A program made the translations under genes and the position numbers. Below are positions 20,977 through 64,000 of a DNA stretch of 64,000 bases, piece after piece. Every line of letters begins with the position of its first letter. The stretch's first letter is position 1. The notes beneath the pieces are model-generated. The model had not been told where the DNA came from. It worked only from the letters and a program-made list of their open reading frames with translations, and did not search any database. The stretch is from Hyphococcus sp. (lineage in GTDB: Bacteria; Pseudomonadota; Alphaproteobacteria; Caulobacterales; Parvularculaceae), in contig JANQJK010000023.1 of the NCBI GenBank assembly GCA_028281665.1, positions 1-64,000 on the forward strand, written 5' to 3'.

Positions 20977-21054
20977 GCATCAAAACAATCGATCGCCTAG
21001 GAGATCCCGGCACGCAAATCAGGCGTGAAACGGTCTCCCGGCGTCGTCTGTCTC

Positions 21055-21210
21055 GAACCTTCTACCATCCGGACTATGACCGTCGGCTCTGGACTCTCAC
21101 CAGGATCCTGCCTCTGCGCCATAAAGCGCGTCAGCTCGCGGGCTTGTCAGACGGGCAATTGCCCTGCTGCATTACCGCCGGTGGGGACTTTCACCCCGCC
21201 CCGAAGATTC
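21055..21210 (-). promoter_or_regulatory. FMN riboswitch (RFN element)
   Basis: The minus strand reads through the conserved RFN blocks in order: ATCTTCGGGGCGGGG, GTGAAAGTCCCCACCGG, GGCGGTA, GCAGGGCAATT, AGCCCGCGAGC, CAGGATCCTGGTGAGA, GTCCAGAGCCGACGGT and AGTCCGGATG, closing with AGAAGG, which pairs with the opening CTTC. It senses FMN and controls ribD-ribE-ribB-ribH-folE. The terminator at 20934-20976 is the likely expression platform. Confidence 0.95.
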
Positions 21211-21237
21211 GTGCGCGGATCGCTCCGCGCGTCAATG

Positions 21238-48524: not shown

Positions 48525-48643
48525 AACTCATCAAGACCAGCCGAGGGACAGGCCCGTAGACGCTGGGGCAACCGCCAGGAAGTCAGACCGACTTTTTTGG
48601 AAAGGTGCCAATTCCTTCGGGAAGAGATTCCCGAGAGATGAGT
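48525..48643 (+). promoter_or_regulatory. SAM riboswitch, SAM-I-like (S-box family)
   Basis: P1 is formed by CTCATC (48527-48532) and GATGAG (48637-48642). Between them come the S-box blocks AAGACCAGCCGAGGGACAGG, CCCG, TGGGGCAACC and AAGGTGCCAATTCC in the right order, with a helix CGGGAAGAGATTCCCG late in the element. The consensus is that of SAM-I (or the SAM-I/IV group), which binds S-adenosylmethionine. It precedes metX-metB-hom. The alternative SAM-II class, common in alphaproteobacteria, is much smaller and lacks these blocks. Confidence 0.88.
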
Positions 48644-48725
48644 CGAACGAAGAAAAGTTTTTCGTTCGATCGGTCTCTAGCGAATTGCCTCTGATGAGCG
48701 ACGGAAACGACGCGGAGAAGAGGCA
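48643..48725 (+). promoter_or_regulatory. Expression platform of the SAM riboswitch: hairpin plus ribosome-site sequestering stem
   Basis: TCGAACGAA (48643-48651) and TTCGTTCGA (48661-48669) form a hairpin just after P1. Further on TGCCTCT (48686-48692) pairs perfectly with AGAGGCA (48719-48725), which contains the metX ribosome site AGAGG, seven bases from the ATG at 48731. No strong T-run follows either stem, so control is probably at translation initiation. Confidence 0.6.
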
Positions 48726-48730
48726 TTTTG

Positions 48731-49714
48731 ATGTCAGCCGTTTTGAAAGTTGAGGAAAGCGATCGGCGCGGCGCATGGCGCGACGAAGTTGTATCCTTGC
48801 CGGGCGATTTCACGCTCGACAGCGGCGAGCGCCTGAGCCGGCCACGGATCTGCGTGCGGCTTTACGGCGATCCGACAAAACCTGTCGTCGCGGTCGCCGG
48901 CGGCATTTCGGCGGGCCGCGTCGTCGCCGATACGGATGACGAAAAAGGCTGGTGGGCCGATTACGTTGCGCCGGGCCGGGTGATCGACCTTAAACATTAT
49001 TGTGTCCTCGGCTTCGACTTCCTTCCGAATGCGGAGGAAGAAGCGACTACCATTTCCACCGCTGACCAGGCCCGGGCGCTCGCCTTTGCCCTTGACGCGC
49101 TGGGCGTTGCAGCGCTTGGCGCGTTTGTGGGCTCGTCCTATGGCGGCATGGTCGCGCTGGCCTTTGCGGCCGCGTATCCGGACCGCGTTGCAAACCTCAT
49201 CGTGATTTCCGCCGCCGAGCGGCCACACCCGTTCGGCACGGCCCTCCGCGGCGTGCAGCGACGCATTGTTGATTTTGCCCGTCGACAAGGCGACGCCGCG
49301 GAGGGCGTCGCGTTGGCGCGCCAGCTTGCCATGGTGACGTACCGCACGCCCGTTGAGTTTGCGGCGCGGTTCGATCATGCGCCAGGGGCGGCGGCCGGCG
49401 ATCCTTATGCGGTTTGCGACTACCTTATCGCGCGCGGAAACGATTTCGGCATGGACCCGCAGCGTTTCATCACGCTTTCCGATTCCATTGACCGTCACAG
49501 CGTCGATCTGTCGAAGATCCGGTCCCGTGCGCTCTTTGTCGCCGCGCAGGGCGACCAGCTTTCGCCGCCGGCGGAGGTTCGTCGCTGCGCCGGCGCCGTC
49601 CCCCGCGCGCGTTATGTCGAAATCGTTTCCCAATATGGCCATGACGCCTTCCTCAAGGAAGCCGCGTCCATTGGCCCGTTCATTGACCGTTTTTTGAAGG
49701 AGTCCGGCAAATGA
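48731..49714 (+). CDS. metX: Homoserine O-acyltransferase, MetX-like alpha/beta hydrolase
   Basis: The 327-residue protein acylates homoserine for methionine synthesis. It has the alpha/beta-hydrolase nucleophile S136 in GSSYGGMVALAFA, Asp in VAAQGDQLSPPAE (near 281) and His in QYGHDAFLKE (near 311). GGISAGRVV replaces the canonical oxyanion-region sequence and the chain is about 40-50 residues shorter than classical MetX; both traits resemble the short MetX-like succinyltransferases of Xanthomonadales. Whether acetyl- or succinyl-CoA is used cannot be decided, though the metB partner favours O-succinylhomoserine. It is first in a SAM-riboswitch operon and overlaps metB (ATGA). Confidence 0.88.
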   Translation: MSAVLKVEESDRRGAWRDEVVSLPGDFTLDSGERLSRPRICVRLYGDPTKPVVAVAGGISAGRVVADTDDEKGWWADYVAPGRVIDLKHYCVLGFDFLPNAEEEATTISTADQARALAFALDALGVAALGAFVGSSYGGMVALAFAAAYPDRVANLIVISAAERPHPFGTALRGVQRRIVDFARRQGDAAEGVALARQLAMVTYRTPVEFAARFDHAPGAAAGDPYAVCDYLIARGNDFGMDPQRFITLSDSIDRHSVDLSKIRSRALFVAAQGDQLSPPAEVRRCAGAVPRARYVEIVSQYGHDAFLKEAASIGPFIDRFLKESGK

Positions 49715-53069: not shown

Positions 53070-54328
53070 CTGCAATCGATGAGATGATGGCCAATGTTGG
53101 CCGCGCGGCGAAAGAAGCGCGGGCCGCCATGCGCGGAGCGTCCGCGGATATGAAAAACCGCGCGCTGATCCGGGCGGCGGAGAATATCGATGCGCGGCGG
53201 TCGGCGATTCTAGGCGCAAACGCGGCGGAGGTTGCAGCAGCGCGCGAGGCCGGCAGAACGAATGCGTTCATCGACCGCATGGCCCTCGACGACGGACGCA
53301 TCGACGGCATTTGCGATGCGCTGCGCGATGTTGCTGCGCTGGACGATCCTGTCGGGAAAACCCTTCGGGAATGGACCCGGCCAAACGGCCTTTCCATCGC
53401 ACGCGTCGCCGCGCCGATCGGGGTGGTGGCCGTCATCTACGAGAGCCGGCCAAACGTTACGGTCGATGCGGCGGCAATCGCGCTGAAGGCCGGCAACGCG
53501 GTCATCCTGCGCGGCGGCTCGGAGTGTATCGAAACCAACGGCGCGCTCTATGCCTGTTTTCGCGATGCGTGTGTTGGCGCCGGCTTGCCGGGCGCCGCCG
53601 CGCAGTTTGTTGCGACGCCTGATCGCGCTGCCGTCGGCGCCCTGTTGTCCGGCCTCGACGGCGCGGTCGATCTTGTCATTCCGCGCGGCGGGAAGTCGCT
53701 CGTTGCGCGGGTTCAGTCCGACGCCCGCGCGCCGGTGCTGAGCCATCTCGACGGCATTTGTCATGTTTACCTCGATCGCGACGCTGACGTGGAAAAGGCC
53801 GTTGCTATCGCCGTCAATTCGAAGATGCGGCGCACGGGCGTTTGCGGCGCTGCGGAGACATTGTTGCTCGACAAGGCCGCGCTAGACCGTCTGTGGCCGC
53901 CGGTCTCAACGGCGCTGCGCGAGGCGGGTTGCGAATTGCGCGCTGACGGCGCCATCCGCGCGTTGGACGACAATACGCTGGAGGCGACGGACGAGGATTT
54001 TTACACCGAGTATCTCGACGCCGTTATCAGCGCCGCGGCCGTCGACGGCGTCGCCGGCGCGATCGCTCACATTGCGCAATACGGATCCGGGCACACCGAG
54101 ACAATTGTCACGGAGAATCCGGACGCCGCCGATCAGTTCATTGCCGGCGTCGACAGCGCGATCATCCTTCACAACGCGTCGACCCAGTTCGCCGATGGCG
54201 GCGAATTCGGCCTCGGCGCGGAGATCGGCATCGCCACAGGGCGTCTTCACGCGCGCGGCCCGGTCGGCGTGGAGGAGCTGACGACCTACAAAAACGTAGT
54301 GCGCGGCGCGGGCCAGATCAGGCCCTGA
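53066..54328 (+). CDS. proA: Gamma-glutamyl phosphate reductase
   Basis: The 420-residue NADPH-dependent enzyme reduces gamma-glutamyl phosphate to glutamate semialdehyde. APIGVVAVIYESRPNVTVDAAA, LKAGNAVILRGGSE, LVIPRGGKSLVARVQ, the catalytic cysteine in KMRRTGVCGAAETLL and ELTTYKNVVRGAGQIRP are standard. It is translationally coupled to proB and ends the segment before the branched-chain attenuator. Confidence 0.97.
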   Translation: MTAIDEMMANVGRAAKEARAAMRGASADMKNRALIRAAENIDARRSAILGANAAEVAAAREAGRTNAFIDRMALDDGRIDGICDALRDVAALDDPVGKTLREWTRPNGLSIARVAAPIGVVAVIYESRPNVTVDAAAIALKAGNAVILRGGSECIETNGALYACFRDACVGAGLPGAAAQFVATPDRAAVGALLSGLDGAVDLVIPRGGKSLVARVQSDARAPVLSHLDGICHVYLDRDADVEKAVAIAVNSKMRRTGVCGAAETLLLDKAALDRLWPPVSTALREAGCELRADGAIRALDDNTLEATDEDFYTEYLDAVISAAAVDGVAGAIAHIAQYGSGHTETIVTENPDAADQFIAGVDSAIILHNASTQFADGGEFGLGAEIGIATGRLHARGPVGVEELTTYKNVVRGAGQIRP

Positions 54329-54488
54329 CCGCCAGCGATGGCAGATGATGCTAAATTTGTCTCAAAATCAGCAAGGGGTGCATTTTTTTCAAGGAAACCA
54401 GCCAGTTTATGGTTGTGTTTTAACTTAAAGCTGTTGTAAAGCCAGTTTCGCGTTGCAGCCATTGCAGCGCAGCAGAAAGGTCAAGTCA

Positions 54489-54635
54489 GTGCAGAGCATA
54501 CTGCATCAGGGAGGCATCGGCGATGTCGCGGGTTTATCCGCGACGTCGTTGCCGCTCGCGCTGCTCCTCGTCCTTCTTCTCGTGGTAGTCCTTATTAGCC
54601 CCTTCCGGGGAGCGGCAATGGAGCGCGCGCGGTAA
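54489..54635 (+). CDS. ilvL: Branched-chain attenuator leader peptide
   Basis: This 48-residue peptide starts at GTG 54489 with AAAGG upstream. Residues 21-36 contain 14 Leu, Val or Ile codons (LPLALLLVLLLVVVLI), then SPFRGAAMERAR and a stop at 54633. The layout resembles the E. coli IlvL leader, which also ends its Val/Ile run before a PP.GAA segment. The peptide itself is probably without function; its translation senses charged tRNA-Leu, -Val and -Ile and sets the fate of the terminator at 54662-54692. An upstream in-frame ATG at 54453 is less well placed. Confidence 0.85.
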   Translation: MQSILHQGGIGDVAGLSATSLPLALLLVLLLVVVLISPFRGAAMERAR

Positions 54636-54692
54636 CGAACGCAAAAACGACCTCCAAACAGCCCGCTCCCGAAAGGAAGCGGGATTTTTTTT
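54599..54692 (+). terminator. Transcription attenuator of the ilv-leu operon
   Basis: Four segments can be paired. Segment 1 CCCC (54599-54602) pairs with GGGG (54607-54610). Segment 2 GGGAGCGG (54608-54615) pairs perfectly with segment 3 CCGCTCCC (54663-54670), the antiterminator. Segment 3 CCCGCT (54662-54667) pairs with segment 4 AGCGGG (54678-54683) around CGAAA, followed by eight or more T residues, the terminator. Segment 1 follows directly on the last Ile codon, so a ribosome stalled in the Leu/Val/Ile run masks it and favours 2:3. Confidence 0.85.
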
Positions 54693-54747: not shown

Positions 54748-56424
54748 ATGACAGAACTGAAAATCAAACGCTCCGATGCGATCACAAAAGGCCCCGCCAA
54801 GGCGCCGGCCCGGGCAATGCTGCGCGCCGCGGGTTATGGCGACCAGGATTTCGCCCAGCCGATGATTGCCGTCGTCAACACGTGGTCCACGGTGACGCCG
54901 TGCAATCTGCATCTGGGCGCGCTTGCGGAACCGGTGCGCGCGGGCGTGCGCGCCGGCGGCGCTACGCCCATCGACTTCAATACAATCGTTGTTTCCGACG
55001 GCATCACCATGGGCGGCGAAGGGATGCGCGCCTCGCTCATGAGCCGGGAGCTGATTGCGGACTCGATTGAACTCGCGGTTCGCGGACATTCCCTTGACGG
55101 TGCGGTCATCCTCGTCGGTTGCGACAAGACAATACCGGCAGCGGCCATGGCTCTTGCGCGGATGGATATCCCGGGCGTCGTTCTTTACGGCGGCACGATC
55201 ATGCCCGGCCATCTCGGCGACCGGGATCTTTCCATTCAGGATGTGTTCGAAGCGGTCGGCGCCCACGCGAAAGGCGATATTGACGACGAGGAGCTGGATG
55301 CTATCGAGCGGGCGGCATGCCCCGGCGCCGGCGCCTGCGGCGGGCAGTTTACCGCCAACACCATGGCCATGGCGCTGACATTTCTCGGCATCAGCCCCAT
55401 GGGCGCCGCCGATCCCCCGGCGACGGCAAGCGCCAAGTCGAAAGAGGCCGAGCGCTGCGGCAGGATCGTTGCGTCTCTGGCCCATGAGGGAACGACCGCG
55501 CGCACGTTCATAAGCGAAACATCGCTGCGAAACGCCGCGACCGCTGTCGTCGCCAGCGGCGGGTCGACCAACGCCGTGCTGCATCTGCCGGCGATTGCCG
55601 CGGAAGCTGGCATTGCATTTTCCATCGACGAGTTCGATGCGCTGTCGCGGACGACGCCGGTGATCACGGATCTGAAACCGGGCGGGCAGTATCTCGCAAA
55701 AGATCTCTATGCGGCGGGAGGAACGCCGCTGTTCGGCAAGCGCCTGGCGGACGCCGGCAAGATTGTCGACGCGCCGACCGTTACCGGCAAAACGCTGTTT
55801 GAGGAACTGGCGACCGCCGAGGAAACGGCGGGACAAAAGGTCGTCGGCAGTGTCGACAAACCGTTCAAGGAAACGGGGGGGCTGCGTATTCTTTATGGTG
55901 ACGTGGCGCCCGAAGGCGGCGTTCTTAAAACCGCGGGATATGGGGACGGCGCCTTTGAGGGCCGGGCCCGCATTTTTGAAAGCGAAGAAGAAGCCTTTGA
56001 CGCCGTGACCCACGGCAAGATTGTAGAAGGCGATGTTGTCGTCATCCGTTACGAAGGGCCGAAGGGCGGCCCCGGCATGCGCGAAATGCTCGCCGTGACG
56101 GCGGCGGTCGCCGGGCAGGGGCTCGCCGGCAAGGTTGCGCTTATTACGGACGGCCGGTTTTCAGGCGCGAGCCACGGCTTCGTCATCGGCCATGTTTCGC
56201 CGGAGGCGGCAGTCGGCGGGCCGATTGGCCTGCTCAAAGAGGGCGACCGCATCACCATTGATGCGGAAGGACGGCGCATCAATGGTGATGTCGACTGGGA
56301 CGCCCGCGCCAAGGAAATCAAACCACGTCAACCGAAAAAGATGGGCGGCGCTTTTGATAAATTCGGCCGGCTTGTCTCTTCGGCGTCGAAAGGCGCCGTC
56401 ACCATCGAATTGCCAGAGGATTAA
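54748..56424 (+). CDS. ilvD: Dihydroxy-acid dehydratase
   Basis: The 558-residue iron-sulfur enzyme dehydrates dihydroxy acids to the 2-keto acids of valine and isoleucine. Cluster cysteines lie in TVTPCNLHL (near 50), [13 protein letters not shown] (near 122) and [20 protein letters not shown] (near 192-199); [23 protein letters not shown] is the C-terminal signature. The cysteine spacing fits the 2Fe-2S type. It is the first structural gene after the attenuator. Confidence 0.97.
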
Positions 56425-56438
56425 GAGAAGGAAAGACC

Positions 56439-57452
56439 ATGATTAAGCTCTATACGGAAAATGACGCTAACCCGGCGGCTGTGAAAGGCGCGCCGGTCGC
56501 CGTCATCGGATATGGCAGCCAGGGCCGAGCCCACGCCATGAACCTTGCGGCCTCCGGTTGCCAGGTGATCGTCGGCGTGCGCCCCGGGGGCGCCGGTGAA
56601 AAGAAAGCGCAGGAAGACGGTCTCGAAACGGCGAGCGTCGCCAGCGCGACGAAGCAGGCGAAGCTGATCGCGATCCTGACGCCCGACATGACCCACGAAG
56701 AAATTTTCAAGGCGGACATCGAGCCCAATCTAAATGAGGGGGACGCCGTTCTCGTTGCGCACGGCTTCACCGTTCTTTACGGCCGCATCCAGCCGCCAAA
56801 GAATGTCGACGTCATCCTAGTTGCGCCGAAAGGGCCCGGCGACCTTGTCCGCCGCGAATATGAACGCGGTCGCGGCGTTCCATGCCTCTTTGCGGTCCAT
56901 CAGGACGCAACGGGCAAAGCCAAAGAACGCGCGCTCGCCTATGCAAGCCTCATCGGCGGCACGGCGGCCGGCGCCATCGAAACAACGTTCAAGGAAGAAA
57001 CGGAAACCGACCTGTTCGGCGAACAGGCGGTCCTTTGCGGCGGCGCGTCGGAACTGGTCATTGCCGGTTTCGAAACCCTGGTGGAAGCCGGCTACAAGCC
57101 GGAAATCGCCTATTACGAATGTCTTCATGAGCTGAAGCTTATTGTCGACCTTTTCTACGAAGGCGGCATTACGCGCATGCATGAGTTCATTTCCGAAACG
57201 GCGATGTATGGCGATTTCGTTTCCGGCCCGCGCGTCATCAACGCGGAGACGAAAGAGCGGATGCGGGAAGTCTTGAAAGACATTCAGGACGGATCGTTCG
57301 CACGCGAATGGATTTTGGAAAACCAGGCCGGCAAACCCCGTTACCAGCAGATGTGGCAGGCCGACCTTGATCACCCGATTGAGAAAACCGGCAAGGAACT
57401 GCGCGAAATGATGTCCTGGCTGAAACCGGGCGCCAACACAAAAGACGAGTAG
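56439..57452 (+). CDS. ilvC: Ketol-acid reductoisomerase
   Basis: The 337-residue NADPH enzyme isomerises and reduces acetolactate. The Rossmann motif is [17 protein letters not shown], followed by [32 protein letters not shown], the metal-binding [14 protein letters not shown] and [14 protein letters not shown]. It is the short class I form, with normal length. It lies 14 bases after ilvD and four bases before ilvB. Confidence 0.97.
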
Positions 57453-57456
57453 AGAA

Positions 57457-59268
57457 ATGGCTGACGCTGCCGCGAGACCGAAAGCGAAGACCAAAAGACG
57501 TGCGCGCACTCGTGTCGCAAAGGCGGGCGCCGAGCTACTGCTCGACGCGCTTGAGGAGCAGGGCGTCGAAGTCATTTTTGGCTATCCCGGCGGCGCCGTC
57601 CTGCCGATCTACGATGCGCTGCATCAGCGCGATACGATCAAACACATCCTGATGCGCCACGAACAGGGCGCCGTTCATGCGGCGGAGGGCTATGCCCGCT
57701 CGACCGGCAAGGTCGGCGTCGTGCTGGTCACCTCCGGTCCGGGCGCCACGAACGCCGTGACCGGTCTTGCGGATGCACTGCTCGATTCAATTCCCGTGGT
57801 CTGCATCACCGGGCAGGTGGCGCGCCCGTTCATCGGCACCGATGCGTTTCAGGAATGCGACACCACCGGGATCACTCGGTCGTGCACGAAGCATAACTAT
57901 CTGGTGCAGTCGGCGGCTGAACTGTCAGGCGTCGTCCACGAGGCGTTCCACGTTGCCCGGCGCGGGCGTCCCGGACCGGTCCTGATCGATATTCCGAAGG
58001 ACACGCAGTTTGAGGAGGCGGCCTACACGACCCGTGAGAACGCTAAGAATCGCAACTGCATTGTGGTGCCGGACGTTAATCGGGCCGAAATCGATCAGGC
58101 GATCGACTTGATGCGGTACGCACGGCGGCCGGTCTTCTATACGGGCGGCGGCGTCATCAATGCCGGGTCGGAGGCTTCCGCGACGCTGCGCGCGCTGGCG
58201 CGCGCCACCGGATTTCCGGTGACGTCGACCTTGATGGGACTCGGCGCCTTTCCGGCTTCCGATCCCCAATGGCTTGGCATGCTCGGTATGCACGGCAGTC
58301 TTGAGGCGAACAACGCCATGCATGACTGCGACCTGATGATCTGTGTCGGCGCCCGGTTTGACGACCGCGTGACGGGACGGCTCGATGCGTTCTCGCCGGG
58401 GTCGCGGAAGATCCATATCGATATCGATCCCTCGTCGGTAAACAAAAACGTCCCGGTCGACCTGCCAATCATCGGCGACGCCGGCGCAATCCTCTCGGCG
58501 CTTCATGGCGAATGGCAAAACCGCGAGAAGAAAGACAAACACGACAAGGATCGGATCGCCGACTGGCTGACGCAGATCGACGGCTGGCGCGCGCGGGCGT
58601 CCTACAGTTTTGAAAACTGCGACAAGCACATCAAACCGCAACACGCCGTTCAGCGCCTTTTTGAATTGACTCGTGGCAAAGACGTGTATGTCACGACGGA
58701 AGTCGGCCAGCATCAGATGTGGGCGGCGCAGCACTTTGAGTTTGACGAACCCAACCGCTGGATGACGTCCGGAGGGCTCGGCACCATGGGATACGGACTG
58801 CCGGCCGCGCTTGGCGTTCAGGTTGCGCACCCCGACGCGTTGGTGATCGATATCGCCGGCGATGCGTCGGTGCAGATGACGATGCAGGAAATGTCGGCGG
58901 CGGTGCAATACGATCTGCCCATCAAGATCTTTATCCTGAACAACGCCTATCTCGGCATGGTCCGTCAGTGGCAGGAACTGCTTCACGGCGGACGGTACTC
59001 TCATTCCTATTCGGACAGCCTGCCGGATTTCGTGAAGCTTGCCGAAGCCTATGGCGGCGTCGGCTTGCGCGCGGAAACGCCGGATGAGCTTGATGGCAAG
59101 ATCAAAGAGATGATTGCGGTCGACAAGCCGGTGCTGTTCGACTGCGTTGTCACGCACGAAGAGAACGTGTTTCCGATGATTCCGTCCGGCGCCGCGCACA
59201 ATGAAATGTTGCTGGGCGGGAAAGTGACGGGCGACGAGATCAGCGACGAAGGGAAGGTGCTGGTGTGA
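57457..59268 (+). CDS. ilvB: Acetolactate synthase, large subunit
   Basis: The 603-residue TPP enzyme makes acetolactate from pyruvate (and acetohydroxybutyrate with 2-ketobutyrate). It has GYPGGAVLPIYDAL, the TPP-activating glutamate in RHEQGAVHAAEGYARSTG, a central FAD-binding region (RFDDRVTGRLDAF), and the metal/TPP site GDASVQMTMQEMSA with NNAYLGMVRQWQ. A 20-residue basic extension precedes the family start. It ends in GTGA overlapping the small subunit. ilvI is an equally used name. Confidence 0.96.
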   Translation: MADAAARPKAKTKRRARTRVAKAGAELLLDALEEQGVEVIFGYPGGAVLPIYDALHQRDTIKHILMRHEQGAVHAAEGYARSTGKVGVVLVTSGPGATNAVTGLADALLDSIPVVCITGQVARPFIGTDAFQECDTTGITRSCTKHNYLVQSAAELSGVVHEAFHVARRGRPGPVLIDIPKDTQFEEAAYTTRENAKNRNCIVVPDVNRAEIDQAIDLMRYARRPVFYTGGGVINAGSEASATLRALARATGFPVTSTLMGLGAFPASDPQWLGMLGMHGSLEANNAMHDCDLMICVGARFDDRVTGRLDAFSPGSRKIHIDIDPSSVNKNVPVDLPIIGDAGAILSALHGEWQNREKKDKHDKDRIADWLTQIDGWRARASYSFENCDKHIKPQHAVQRLFELTRGKDVYVTTEVGQHQMWAAQHFEFDEPNRWMTSGGLGTMGYGLPAALGVQVAHPDALVIDIAGDASVQMTMQEMSAAVQYDLPIKIFILNNAYLGMVRQWQELLHGGRYSHSYSDSLPDFVKLAEAYGGVGLRAETPDELDGKIKEMIAVDKPVLFDCVVTHEENVFPMIPSGAAHNEMLLGGKVTGDEISDEGKVLV

Positions 59269-59840
59269 GCCCGGTTCAGTCTCAAAGCACCCAAAAGGCT
59301 GCGCCGTCGCAATCGGTCTACCCGGTCAGCCCGGATCAGGGCGCCGCGGCGGAGTCGATCATCGCCATTATCGTCGATAATGAGCCGGGCGTTCTGTCGC
59401 GGGTGGTGGGGCTGATTTCGGCCCGCGGCTATAATATCGAAAGCCTGACCGTCGCCGAAACCGACGTTGAGAAACACACCTCGCGCATTACGGTCGTCAC
59501 GCGCGGCACGACCGCGAAGATCGATCAGATCAAGGCGCAGCTTGGCCGGCTGGTGCCGGTGCGCCGGGTCATTGACGTAACCGCCGAGAGCGACGCGCTT
59601 GAGCGCGAACTGGCGCTCGTCAAAGTCCTGAACGAAAGCGACCATCGCGTAGAGTCGCTTCGCGTTGCAGACATCTTCCGCGCCCGCGTCATCGACACGA
59701 CCCGCTCATCGTTCGTTTTCGAAGTCACCGGGTCGCGAGAGAAGATCACGGCGTTTATCGACCTGATGAAACCTTTGGGATTGAAGGAAGTCTCGCGAAC
59801 AGGCGTCCTCTCGATCCGCCGCGGCGTGGAGACAGACTGA
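59265..59840 (+). CDS. ilvH: Acetolactate synthase, regulatory small subunit
   Basis: The 191-residue protein has an N-terminal ACT domain (about 30-100, IIAIIVDNEPGVLSRVVGLI and SARGYNIESLTVAETD), which binds valine for feedback inhibition, and the C-terminal half with ELALVKVLNESDHRVESL and EVTGSREKITAFIDLMKPLGL. The GTG start at 59265 overlaps the ilvB stop, so subunit translation is coupled. About 25 residues at the N-terminus are extra. ilvN is a synonym. Confidence 0.96.
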   Translation: MSPVQSQSTQKAAPSQSVYPVSPDQGAAAESIIAIIVDNEPGVLSRVVGLISARGYNIESLTVAETDVEKHTSRITVVTRGTTAKIDQIKAQLGRLVPVRRVIDVTAESDALERELALVKVLNESDHRVESLRVADIFRARVIDTTRSSFVFEVTGSREKITAFIDLMKPLGLKEVSRTGVLSIRRGVETD

Positions 59841-59872
59841 TGCAAAGCCTCCGCCCACATCGACTTAGTCCC

Positions 59873-59894
59873 GCGTGAGGGCCGACCCTCACGC
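59873..59894. repeat. Perfect hairpin between ilvH and leuA
   Basis: GCGTGAGGG and CCCTCACGC form a 9-bp stem with a CCGA loop and no T-run. It may be a processing or stability element in the ilv-leu transcript, or a binding site. Confidence 0.5.
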
Positions 59895-59934
59895 ATGTTG
59901 AGCCGAGTAACGATCAACACGAAGGACTAATCTC

Positions 59935-61497
59935 ATGACCGAAGAACCACACGTAAAGATTTTCGATACGACCCTGCGCGATGGCGAACAGGCGCCCGGG
60001 TTTTCCATGTCCACGGACGCCAAGCTGGTTGTCGCGCGGGCTCTTGCAGCGGCCAATGTAGACATTATGGAGGCGGGCTTTGCGGCGGCGTCTCCCGGCG
60101 ACGCCGCCTCGATCCGCACCGTTGCGGAGGAGATCGAGGGCCCGACCATTTGCTCGCTGTCGCGATTGAACCCGGCCGATATCGACGCGTCGGCGCAGGC
60201 GCTTGAGCCCGCCCGGAAGAAGCGCATTCACACCTTTATCGGCACGAGTCCGCTTCACCGTGACGCCAAGCTGAAAATGTCGAAGGAGGAAATCCTCAAG
60301 GCGATTTCCGAAACCGTCGCCTATGCGGCGTCCGCCTGCGACGATGTCGAGTTCTCGCCCGAGGACGCCATTCGCACGGAGCGCGACTACCTTGCCGACG
60401 CCGTGCAGGCGGCTATCGAGGCCGGAGCGCAGACGATCAATATACCCGATACGGTCGGCTACACGACGCCTGAGGAAATCACCGATTTATTCCGGTTTCT
60501 GATTGCAACGGTTCCGGGCGCGGAGGGGGTGACGTTTTCCGTTCACTGCCATGACGACCTCGGCATGGCGGTGGCGAATTCCCTGGCGGCGGTGCGCGGC
60601 GGCGCCCGTCAGATCGAATGCGCGATTAATGGCATCGGGGAACGCGCCGGCAATTGCTCCATGGAAGAAGCGGTCATGGCGCTGGCGACGAGGCGCGATT
60701 TCTTCGGTTGCGCGACGCAGATCGATACGACGAAGCTCTATCCCGCGAGCCGCGCATTGTCACGCGTCACCCACAATCCCATTCCGCGCAACAAGGCAAT
60801 CGTCGGAAAGAACGCCTTCGCCCATGAGGCCGGCATTCATCAGCATGGCGTGCTCGCCGACAAGCGTACCTATGAGATCATGGATGCGGAATCCGTCGGC
60901 ATGCCGTCAAACACCATTGTGCTTGGGAAACACTCGGGCAAGCACGCGGTCATGGCCCGGGCGAAGACGCTTGGCTTCAGCGTTTCGAAGCAGAAAATCG
61001 AAGATATCTTCCCGGCGTTTAAGCGCCTGGCGGATACCTGCCGCGAAGTCACTGACGCCGACCTCGTGAAGCTGCTAACCGGAAACGCCGAAAGCGACGG
61101 GCGGATCGGCCCCTGGCGTATGCGCAAAACGGAGTTGCATGTGGATATGGAAGGCGAGACGCGTCCCCACGCCCGCATTACCATGGAGCACGATAATGGC
61201 GAGCGGCGCACCGTGCGTCATCGCGGCGAGGGGCCGATCGACGCGGCGTTTGCTGCGGTGTGCGCAATCACCGGCGTGCCGGCGCGGATCAACATCCTTG
61301 ATCTTCATCACGTGGCGACGGAAGGCGTCGTTCGCGCCGAGGCCATTATCGATGTCGGCGACGAACAGTTTTCCGGCAAGGCCGAGGAAGTTGACGTCGC
61401 GGATGCGGCCGTCGCGGCATTCGTCGCCGCGGTTAATCAGGCGGCCGCTATCCAGAGCGGCAGGGCCGTCTCGTCTGCAATAGAAAACGTTTCCTGA
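59935..61497 (+). CDS. leuA: 2-isopropylmalate synthase
   Basis: The 520-residue enzyme condenses 2-ketoisovalerate with acetyl-CoA, the first step specific to leucine. [17 protein letters not shown] opens the TIM-barrel, [20 protein letters not shown] holds the metal histidines, and [17 protein letters not shown] belongs to the subdomain. The C-terminal LeuA allosteric domain (about 390-510) binds leucine. It follows ilvH after 94 bases that hold a hairpin but no clear terminator. Confidence 0.97.
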
Positions 61498-61505
61498 GGT
61501 CCGCC

Positions 61506-62909
61506 ATGACAGCAAAGTCCTTATTCGACAAACTCTGGGAACGGCATGTCGTTGTCGATGAGACCGCCGACAGCCCGGCGGTCCTGTTTATCGACCTTCA
61601 TCTCACCCATGAGGTGACGTCGCCACAGGCCTTCGCCATTCTCAGTGAACGCGGGTTAAGGGTCCGTCGCCCCGATCTCACCATCGCAACGCTGGATCAT
61701 TCGACGCCGACATTGCCGGCGGACGAAAATGGCGAGCTTCCCTATGGGACGCCGGAAGCGAAGGCGCAGGTCGAAACGCTGATTGCGAATTGCGCCGAAT
61801 ATGGCGTTGAACTCTTAGGCATGGGCGACCCGCGCCGGGGCATTGTCCATGTCATCGGGCCGGAGCTCGGTTTGACGCAACCGGGCAAGACCATCGTTTG
61901 CGGCGACAGTCACACATCGACCCATGGCGCATTCGGCGCGCTCGCCTTTGGCATTGGCACCACGGAAGTCGGACATGTGCTGGCGACGCAGTGCATCTTG
62001 CAGCGAAAACCGAAATCCATGCGCGTCACGTTCGAAGGTGAAACGCCGGCGGGCGTGACGGCGAAAGACATGGCGCTTGCCATGATCGCTGAAATCGGCG
62101 CCGATGGCGGGCAGGGATATGCGATTGAATATGCCGGGCCCGCGGTTGAGGCGCTGTCCATGGAAGCGCGCATGACCCTTTGCAATATGTCGATCGAAGG
62201 CGGCGCCCGCTCCGGCATGGTGGCCCCGGACGACAAAACCATTGCATGGCTTGAGGGGCGTGACCGCGCGCCGAAGGGCGGCGCCTGGGACGCGGCGGTC
62301 AGCGACTGGCTTTCGCTGCGAACTGACGAGGGCGCAACGTTTGACAAGGAAGTCGTAATCGACGCGTCTGAACTGAAGCCGATGATTACCTATGGTGTTT
62401 CGCCGGACGCCGCGGCGGCGGTGGATGCGCGAGCACCGGCTGCGGCGAGCGACGAGGAGCGCCGCGCGGCTGACTACATGAAACTTGAAGGCGGCCGGCC
62501 GTTTACGGAAAACAGCGTCGACAAGGTGTTTATCGGCAGCTGCACCAACTCAAGACTCTCCGACCTTCGTCTCGCCGCGGAGATCATGCGCGGCCGCAAG
62601 GTGAGGGACGGCGTCGTCGCGCTCATTGTGCCGGGATCGGAAGCCGTGCGCCGCGCTGCGGAGGAAGAGGGGCTCCACAAGGTGTTTCTGGATGCGGGCG
62701 CCGAATGGCGCGAGCCCGGATGCTCTATGTGCATCGCCATGAATGGCGATGCCGGCGCGCCGGGCGACCTCGTCGTTTCCACCTCGAACCGCAATTTCAT
62801 GGGCCGTCAGGGCAAGGACGTCCGCACGGTGCTTGCCAGCCCGGCCACTGCGGCGGCGAGCGCGATCGAGGGCCGCATTGCCGATCCGCGCCCCTACCTG
62901 GAGCAATAA
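61506..62909 (+). CDS. leuC: 3-isopropylmalate dehydratase, large subunit
   Basis: The 467-residue aconitase-family protein isomerises isopropylmalate with Leu[33 protein letters not shown] is the substrate segment, and the 4Fe-4S cysteines lie in [13 protein letters not shown] and [11 protein letters not shown]. It begins [16 protein letters not shown] eight bases after leuA and is followed three bases later by leuD. Confidence 0.97.
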
Positions 62910-62912
62910 CTC

Positions 62913-63494
62913 ATGTCGTTCGAACCGTTTCGCACCCTGACATCAAAAACGCTGGTTTTGCCGGCGGAAAATATTGATACGGATCAAATCATCGCCGCCC
63001 GCTTCCTGACGACAACGTCGCGGGATGGCCTCGGAAAAGCGGCGTTCTACGATTGGCGTTTTGACGAGAACGGCGCGCCGAAAAATTCGTCGCCCTTCAG
63101 CGGCTACGACCCGGCGGCGCAAAAAATACTGGTGGCCGGCGCGAATTTCGGTTGCGGGTCGTCGCGAGAGCACGCGCCCTGGGCGCTCTACGACCTTGGG
63201 TTTCGGGCAGTCGTCAGTTCCGACATCGCTGACATCTTCACAAGCAACGCGCTGAAAAATGGATTGCTTCCTGTAGAAGTTGACGAACAGACCCATCGGA
63301 CGTTGCTCGATGCGCCCGGCGAAGAAGTAAGTGTGGATCTTGAAGGTCAGACGCTCCGATTTGGCGGCGACCGGCAGGCCGCGTTCAAGGTGGAGCCGTT
63401 TGCACGGCGATGCCTCCTGGACGGCGTTGATCCGCTGGGACACCTCCTCAATCAGGTCGATGCCATCGAAGCCTATGAAAGCGCGCGCCCGTGA
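62913..63494 (+). CDS. leuD: 3-isopropylmalate dehydratase, small subunit
   Basis: The 193-residue subunit completes the isomerase with LeuC. ENIDTDQIIAARFL and GANFGCGSSREHAPWALYDLGFRAV are the swivel-domain signatures, with NALKNGLLPV close by. Its stop overlaps the GTG start of leuB. Confidence 0.97.
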   Translation: MSFEPFRTLTSKTLVLPAENIDTDQIIAARFLTTTSRDGLGKAAFYDWRFDENGAPKNSSPFSGYDPAAQKILVAGANFGCGSSREHAPWALYDLGFRAVVSSDIADIFTSNALKNGLLPVEVDEQTHRTLLDAPGEEVSVDLEGQTLRFGGDRQAAFKVEPFARRCLLDGVDPLGHLLNQVDAIEAYESARP

Positions 63495-64000
63495 CAAAAA
63501 AGATTGCCTATCTGCCGGGCGACGGCGTTGGTCCCGAAGTCGCCGGTGCGGCGCGGCTTGTTACTGAAGCGGCGGCGCGGAAATTTGATTTCCCGATTGA
63601 GATAAAGGACTGCCTCTTCGGCGGCGCCGCCATCGACGCTTGCGGCGATCCGTTCCCGGCGGACACGAAAGAGATCTGCCAGGCGTCCGACGCCATTTTG
63701 CTTGGCGCCATCGGCGGGCCGAAATGGGACAATGCGTCGAAACGGCCCGAACCGGGTCTCCTCGCACTGCGTAAGGATCTAGGGTTGTTCGCCAATCTGC
63801 GGCCTGTGAAAATTTTTGATGGGCACGAGGCGAAATCGCCCCTCAAGGACGATCGTGCGCGGGGCGTGGATATCATGTTCGTGCGTGAACTCACCGGCGG
63901 GATTTACTTTGGCGACCGAGAAGAAGGCGAGGACGCGGCGTGGGACCAGTGCGCATATTCCCGCGAGGAAGTGGAGCGGGTCGCACGCGTTGCGTTCGAG
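63491..64000 (+). CDS. leuB: 3-isopropylmalate dehydrogenase, N-terminal part
   Basis: The gene starts at GTG 63491 (GTGA overlap with leuD) and runs off the window after 170 codons; the full family length is about 360 residues. IAYLPGDGVGPEV, LLGAIGGPKWD, LRKDLGLFANLRPVK and VRELTGGIYFG are diagnostic of LeuB. It oxidises and decarboxylates 3-isopropylmalate to 2-ketoisocaproate with NAD. Confidence 0.95.
   Translation, partial: MTKKIAYLPGDGVGPEVAGAARLVTEAAARKFDFPIEIKDCLFGGAAIDACGDPFPADTKEICQASDAILLGAIGGPKWDNASKRPEPGLLALRKDLGLFANLRPVKIFDGHEAKSPLKDDRARGVDIMFVRELTGGIYFGDREEGEDAAWDQCAYSREEVERVARVAFE

Follow-up and report, generated by a model that had tools for sequence, protein, structure and literature searches.

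A probable ilv-type multivalent transcription attenuator heads the ilvD-first ilv-leu cluster of a Parvularculaceae genome, with a second candidate leader before leuA

The ilvDCBH-leuACDB cluster of the studied genome is, with high confidence, controlled by an ilv-type multivalent ribosome-mediated transcription attenuator. The analyzed window is a 64,000-nt stretch (positions 1–64000 of one contig) of a 3.35-Mb assembly, and the attenuator occupies the region between proA (ending at 54328, same strand) and ilvD. The closest named matches of ilvD are those of Aquisalinus sp. (79% identity) and Parvularcula oceani (71%); Aquisalinus belongs to Parvularculaceae, Alphaproteobacteria. We observe here the attenuator parts, their conservation and covariation, and the effect of stalls in predicted folding. 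The parts of the attenuator and the genes that follow it, in an order ilvD-ilvC-ilvB-ilvH-leuA-leuC-leuD-leuB that is kept in relatives, are as follows.

54476..54480, plus strand: likely Shine-Dalgarno sequence of the ilvD leader (AAAGG), read from the sequence
54489..54635, plus strand: leader ORF, 48 sense codons and TAA (GTG start at 54489, TAA at 54633–54635)
54549..54596, plus strand: control-codon block LPLALLLVLLLVVVLI, codons 21–36, 14 of 16 being branched-chain codons
54549..54557, plus strand: segment 1 (TTGCCGCTC), a perfect 9-bp complement of 54610–54618
54607..54618, plus strand: segment 2 (GGGGAGCGGCAA), partner of either segment 1 or segment 3
54662..54670, plus strand: segment 3 (CCCGCTCCC), also the 5' arm of the terminator
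54662..54692, plus strand: intrinsic terminator, hairpin 54662–54683 and then eight T's at 54685–54692
54748..56424, plus strand: ilvD, the first controlled gene (ORF and ilvD family alignment)
56439..57452, plus strand: ilvC (ORF, conserved gene order)
57457..59268, plus strand: ilvB, acetolactate synthase large subunit (ORF, gene order, relatives compared)
59265..59840, plus strand: ilvH, acetolactate synthase small subunit (ORF, conserved gene order)
59935..61497, plus strand: leuA (ORF, conserved gene order)
61506..62909, plus strand: leuC (ORF, conserved gene order)
62913..63494, plus strand: leuD (ORF, conserved gene order)
63491..64000, plus strand: start of leuB, which continues beyond the window end (full length 348 aa)

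The predicted leader peptide, VQSILHQGGIGDVAGLSATSLPLALLLVLLLVVVLISPFRGAAMERAR, contains nine Leu, four Val and one Ile within the 16 codons of the control block. No other 16-codon stretch in any of the six frames of the window is as rich: unrelated stretches have at most 11 branched-chain codons, and the best stretches in 60 dinucleotide shuffles of the whole window do not exceed 11 either. Hence a short leader with clustered end-product codons is present, as seen from the ORF, the shuffles and the relatives, its translation being predicted. The likely Shine-Dalgarno sequence and the start GAGGTCAAGTCA[G]TG are kept in four close relatives, with ATG used in one. A strong hairpin (54518–54545) is also observed within the leader ORF, immediately 5' of the control block.

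Downstream of the block, GGGAGCGG (54608–54615) in segment 2 is a perfect 8-bp complement of CCGCTCCC (54663–54670) in segment 3, and an intrinsic terminator is found between the leader and the first structural gene. The terminator hairpin is nearly invariant across 24 relatives. The 1:2 pairing is seen in the window and in the closest relatives, the complementarity of segment 1 being retained in two of them (L002, L005) and retained with a mismatch or wobble in two more (L003, L004); over the genus as a whole, segment 1 does not keep its position. By itself a terminator-like pattern would be unremarkable in the window (two found, 1.1 expected), and chance is excluded because the leader, the pairings and the terminator combine and are conserved. 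The pattern scan yielded no sigma-70-like promoter upstream of the leader, a scan that alphaproteobacterial promoters often fail, and no Rfam leader family (Leu_leader, Trp_leader and others) matched the ilvD leader at the gathering threshold.

The initial annotation had described a 48-codon leader with 14 branched-chain codons among 16, 1:2, 2:3 and 3:4 pairings that exclude one another, and a strong terminator, and had read these as a full attenuator of the enterobacterial type acting on ilvD and perhaps on all eight ilv-leu genes. Its coordinates were reproduced, the pairings and the run of eight T's were located in the sequence, and the sequence, the relatives and the folding agree with the proposed type of control.

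From this arrangement we infer transcription, stalling, termination and a response to each amino acid. RNA polymerase would transcribe the leader, followed by a translating ribosome. When charged tRNA-Leu or tRNA-Val (probably also tRNA-Ile) is scarce, the ribosome would stall in codons 21–36 and cover segment 1, leaving segment 2 (54608–54615) free for segment 3 (54663–54670), so that the terminator would be blocked and the operon read. When the amino acids are plentiful, the ribosome would reach the stop codon, segment 2 would be covered or paired with segment 1, and the terminator at 54662–54692 would form.

To compute what stalls would do to the folding, each codon in turn was put in the A site of a ribosome, and the RNA 3' of that ribosome was folded. 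The predicted antiterminator values are 0.77–0.88 for codons 21–35, 0.32 for Ile36, 0.11 for Ser37, and about zero elsewhere; therefore, the permissive zone coincides with the control block, and stalls at the control codons, not elsewhere, are predicted to favor the antiterminator. The zone is stable to shifts of the ribosome footprint by ±4 nt. Among 26 near relatives it usually ends directly past the last branched-chain codon (14 times at an Ile|Ser boundary), and over all loci 56% of permissive codons are branched-chain, compared to 30% of other codons.

Equilibrium folding gave no permissive zone for the E. coli ilvL positive control, and no or hardly any zone for several relatives (L003, L032, L049). 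As it failed on the E. coli control, we added a truncated-transcript proxy, with the transcript cut at the terminator loop as a stand-in for co-transcriptional folding. With this proxy E. coli ilvL shows a permissive zone that runs through its Ile codons and scarcely further, and the zone is recovered in those relatives that were re-examined. The proxy blurs the upstream edge of the zone in most loci, and hence only its 3' edge is informative. Given the failures of equilibrium folding on the control and several relatives, we regard these predictions as supportive, not decisive.

The same predictions bear on which amino acids are sensed. Three had been proposed in the initial annotation; for Leu and Val, with many codons in the permissive zone, sensing is well supported by the folding model, and for Ile, with one codon at the 3' edge, it is less secure. 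Three-way Leu/Val/Ile sensing is plausible and not more than that, because Ile36 is the sole Ile codon in the block, its antiterminator value is 0.32, and this is lost if the upstream RNA re-pairs: when re-pairing is allowed, the prediction for a stall at Val34, Leu35 or Ile36 is termination. It is thus a serious, if minority, possibility that the attenuator works but termination is relieved by shortage of Leu or Val and not of Ile, the more so as the earlier Ile codons, 4 and 10, fall outside the permissive zone. Against this, nearly every same-genus leader has an Ile codon at the end of its block, in most of them the predicted zone stops right behind that codon, and several relatives (L015, L023) have extra Ile codons within the block. 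How one leader weighs three amino acids may now be tested codon by codon.

Comparative support for the 2:3 pairing comes from both duplex energies and compensating changes. In 52 loci the best duplex between the leader and the terminator 5' arm has the mean energy of –17.6 kcal/mol, compared to –12.8 kcal/mol for shuffled upstream regions, and about 50 loci have a complement of segment 3 at a comparable distance. Within the genus, terminator covariation is uninformative, as the hairpin hardly varies, and counting 2:3 pairs on the model-fitted alignment fails for distant relatives, since gaps fall in segment 2. For this reason we used a swap test instead, exchanging the upstream regions among 23 distinct terminator arms (one locus per arm): the energies sum to –395.7 with own leaders and to –354.8 with exchanged ones (sd 10.9, p = 0.00025). 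In distant relatives, compensating changes that keep the mutually exclusive 2:3 antiterminator are seen, as in AGGTAGCGGG with CCCCGCTACC (L038) and AGGCGCGGGG with CCCCGCGCC (L078), and also in L026 and L063.

Conservation in relatives, suggested in the initial annotation as a check, is extensive. A leader rich in branched-chain codons followed by a terminator is found upstream of ilvD in 23 of 23 same-genus loci with readable upstream DNA (L001–L023); the N-terminal halves of these leaders differ freely, and their ends resemble LLVVVLLISPxRGAAMEPAR. A covariance model built from 24 near relatives (R1) matches 100 of the 249 genomes of the order. It has one credible copy in the source genome, other matches being weak; the next best one (E = 0.05) is a terminator-like hairpin and was rejected as a second copy. 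Comparable arrangements are seen in genomes resembling those of Hyphomonadaceae, Maricaulis and Brevundimonas, as well as in Lysobacter, Luteimonas and even Obscuribacterales bins. In nearly all examined loci the element precedes ilvD, the exceptions being G229 (L163) and G160 (L174), where it precedes ilvC-ilvB; this suggests that the attenuator stays with the operon head when the gene order changes.

These data document an ilv-type attenuator that is widespread in Caulobacterales-type Alphaproteobacteria, where it heads a combined ilv-leu operon, and supply a covariance model for an element unrecognised by Rfam. As a separate observation, a leader rich in branched-chain codons and a GC-rich terminator precede ilvD in distant lineages, Obscuribacterales (L054, L096) and Lysobacteraceae (L063, L078, L083), where ilvD and the ilv-leu gene order are related as well; joint transfer of the operon and the attenuator might account for these cases.

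Because the parts of the attenuator are strictly conserved at the operon head across the order, it is also improbable that a DNA-binding regulator or Rho is the main control and the leader a minor modifier. Such layers of control are carried by many ilv and leu operons elsewhere, and no promoter or operator has been characterised at this locus, which leaves some room for them. It is very unlikely that the leader ORF encodes a functional small hydrophobic protein, the terminator just ending a short transcript: the block could span a membrane, judging by its hydrophobicity, and there is a sub-threshold Pfam match to the KASH domain (probably by chance), but the N-terminal halves are unconserved, whereas relatives keep the Leu/Val/Ile block, the spacing and the RNA pairings, and a protein gives no role to the 2:3 pairing, yet compensating changes preserve it. 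Finally, proA is the immediate upstream neighbour in the same orientation, but a plain terminator of the proBA operon beside a chance leucine-rich ORF is a reading of negligible probability, rejected as contradicted by conservation: the control block beats every shuffled window, the leader and terminator accompany ilvD with no proBA found upstream (L118, L119), and the element precedes ilvC in G229 and G160.

Multivalent sensing by one leader is a textbook feature of ilvGMEDA, and among the closest parallels to the ilvD attenuator is the E. coli ilvGMEDA leader (ilvL). Both have a multivalent Leu/Val/Ile leader with a C-terminal GAA motif, and the CCGAAAGG terminator loop followed by T8-GACC is common to both. 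In E. coli K-12, R1 finds the ilvGMEDA leader region with 22.9 bits (E = 3.5e-6 over 901 bases). The differences are in the leader length (32 codons in E. coli, 48 here), in isoleucine content (five Ile codons in E. coli, one in the Leu-rich block here), and in the controlled genes (ilvGMEDA and the ilvD-first ilv-leu cluster, respectively). With the Pfam family IlvGEDA_leader (PF08046) the window peptide scores 16 bits, below the cut-off of 25 (E = 0.009), a likeness in working only.

Among Alphaproteobacteria, an ilvBN attenuator with tandem Ile and Val codons has been described in Caulobacter crescentus (Tarleton et al., 1994, cited in PMC4117421). Going by that secondary description, it is likewise a case of ribosome-mediated attenuation of branched-chain synthesis, but it precedes ilvBN, whereas here ilvD and the combined ilv-leu cluster follow. 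Leaders of ilvB/ilvBNC in Corynebacterium also have Ile, Val and Leu codons and a terminator before the ilv operon (PMC1262725, PMC11857589, PMC10272879); they differ from the ilvD leader in operon, phylum and RNA sequence. As R1 matches the E. coli leader, the peptide is PF08046-like, the terminators are alike, and the Caulobacter case is known, we assign the ilvD attenuator to a known type; its Leu-rich block and its place before an ilvD-first ilv-leu cluster set it apart from known cases. A literature search, mostly outside subscription papers, showed neither this leader nor the second one considered below to be described in this family, and the survey of proteobacterial attenuators by Vitreschak et al. 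(2004) may cover related cases.

Intergenic gaps in the cluster are small or negative, with the exception of the 94-nt gap between ilvH and leuA. A pattern scan of the operon gave no sigma-70-like promoter and, over both strands, 12 terminator-like patterns, where shuffles predict 10.8. Given these gaps, the count near expectation and the lack of an internal promoter match, a single transcript spanning all eight genes is plausible. Within the cluster, the identity of ilvB is about 80% in most of the genus and only about 44% in G008, G017 and other families, the 44%-identical gene occupying the same place in the gene order (the 57457–59840 slot; G008, G017, G028, L033–L049), an apparent in-place gene replacement in the acetolactate synthase slot. 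Separately located ilvB genes in nine relatives have no leader rich in branched-chain codons within about 1 kb upstream.

The exceptional ilvH-leuA gap contains a second candidate leader, which is the more surprising part of the locus. Its parts are the following.

59840–59937, plus strand: second leader between ilvH and leuA (uORF, hairpin and Shine-Dalgarno-hiding stem)
59840..59878, plus strand: uORF MQSLRPHRLSPA-stop, whose ATG overlaps the ilvH stop (TGATG)
59865..59871, plus strand: anti-Shine-Dalgarno arm TTAGTCC, in the Leu-Ser-Pro codons of the uORF, pairing with 59924–59930
59873..59894, plus strand: covarying hairpin of 9 bp in the leuA leader, five of nine pairs being changed on both sides
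59922..59930, plus strand: leuA Shine-Dalgarno sequence AAGGA (59922–59926) and hiding 3' arm GGACTAA (59924–59930), based on pairing and predicted accessibility

The uORF is open in the same frame in 23 of 23 same-genus loci examined, many starting at or beside the ilvH stop. It ends with R-L-S-P-A-stop in the window and with LLLSPAR in relatives; over the same-genus loci the motif is RLSPA, or LLLSPAR/LLLITAR, or a near variant. The gap folds with –31.6 kcal/mol (z = –3.6 relative to shuffled sequence). For the 59873–59894 hairpin in 12 sequences we observe 21 cells with changes on both sides, compared to the shuffled mean of 7.9 (none of 500 shuffles is as high), and sliding the partners abolishes the pairing. 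The outer, Shine-Dalgarno-hiding stem is nearly invariant, so that its own covariation support is weak. A T-run is absent from the second leader, and a comparison with Rfam up to E = 10 gave no match.

With a ribosome at the Leu codon, the predicted accessibility of the leuA Shine-Dalgarno sequence increases from 0.27 to 0.66 (mean of 26 loci). Judging by this model and by analogy with a known element, the second leader is probably a translational attenuator responding to leucine, the leucine specificity being deduced from the LLL subtype, as the window subtype has one Leu codon at the critical place. Covariance models of the two subtypes (R2 and R3) give matches almost confined to this family, with one weak R3 match outside it (E = 0.035) and no R2 match in any other genome among 289 sampled across the class; where inspected, the matches precede leuA. 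The second leader is apparently family-restricted and so far undescribed.

The analogous element is the actinobacterial LEU element before leuA, in which uORF leucine codons pair with the leuA Shine-Dalgarno sequence and there is no terminator (PMC1262725). Both features recur in the second leader, where a codon stretch of the uORF that includes leucine pairs with the leuA Shine-Dalgarno sequence, although in a part of the LLL subtype the pairing partner is just upstream of the latter. Unlike the LEU element, the second leader lies inside an ilv-leu operon, is coupled to ilvH and is independent in sequence, and the window uORF contributes a single Leu codon to the paired stretch. The LEU element also has a conserved pseudoknot, and none was identified in the second leader, for which only nested structures were computed.

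Since a second leader precedes leuA, the ilvD attenuator is probably not the only control of the leu half of the operon. The ilv-leu superoperon may then be under two-tier control, a view almost as easily believed as doubted: the ilvD transcription attenuator would respond to Leu, Val and Ile for all eight genes, and the leuA translational attenuator would act as an extra, leucine-specific gate on the leu genes, a Leu codon of its ilvH-coupled uORF forming part of the helix by which the leuA Shine-Dalgarno sequence is hidden. If the second leader acts in this way, transcriptional and translational attenuation would share the work in one operon, the latter by a mechanism until now proposed for actinobacterial leuA.

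Two other regulatory RNAs are found in the window. A SAM-I riboswitch (48525–48644, plus strand; Rfam RF00162, 86.2 bits) is followed by an alpha/beta-hydrolase-like ORF at 48728, probably a homoserine acyltransferase, and a PLP-enzyme-like ORF at 49711, both probably involved in methionine synthesis. An FMN riboswitch is located at 21053–21212 on the minus strand (Rfam RF00050, 95.5 bits).
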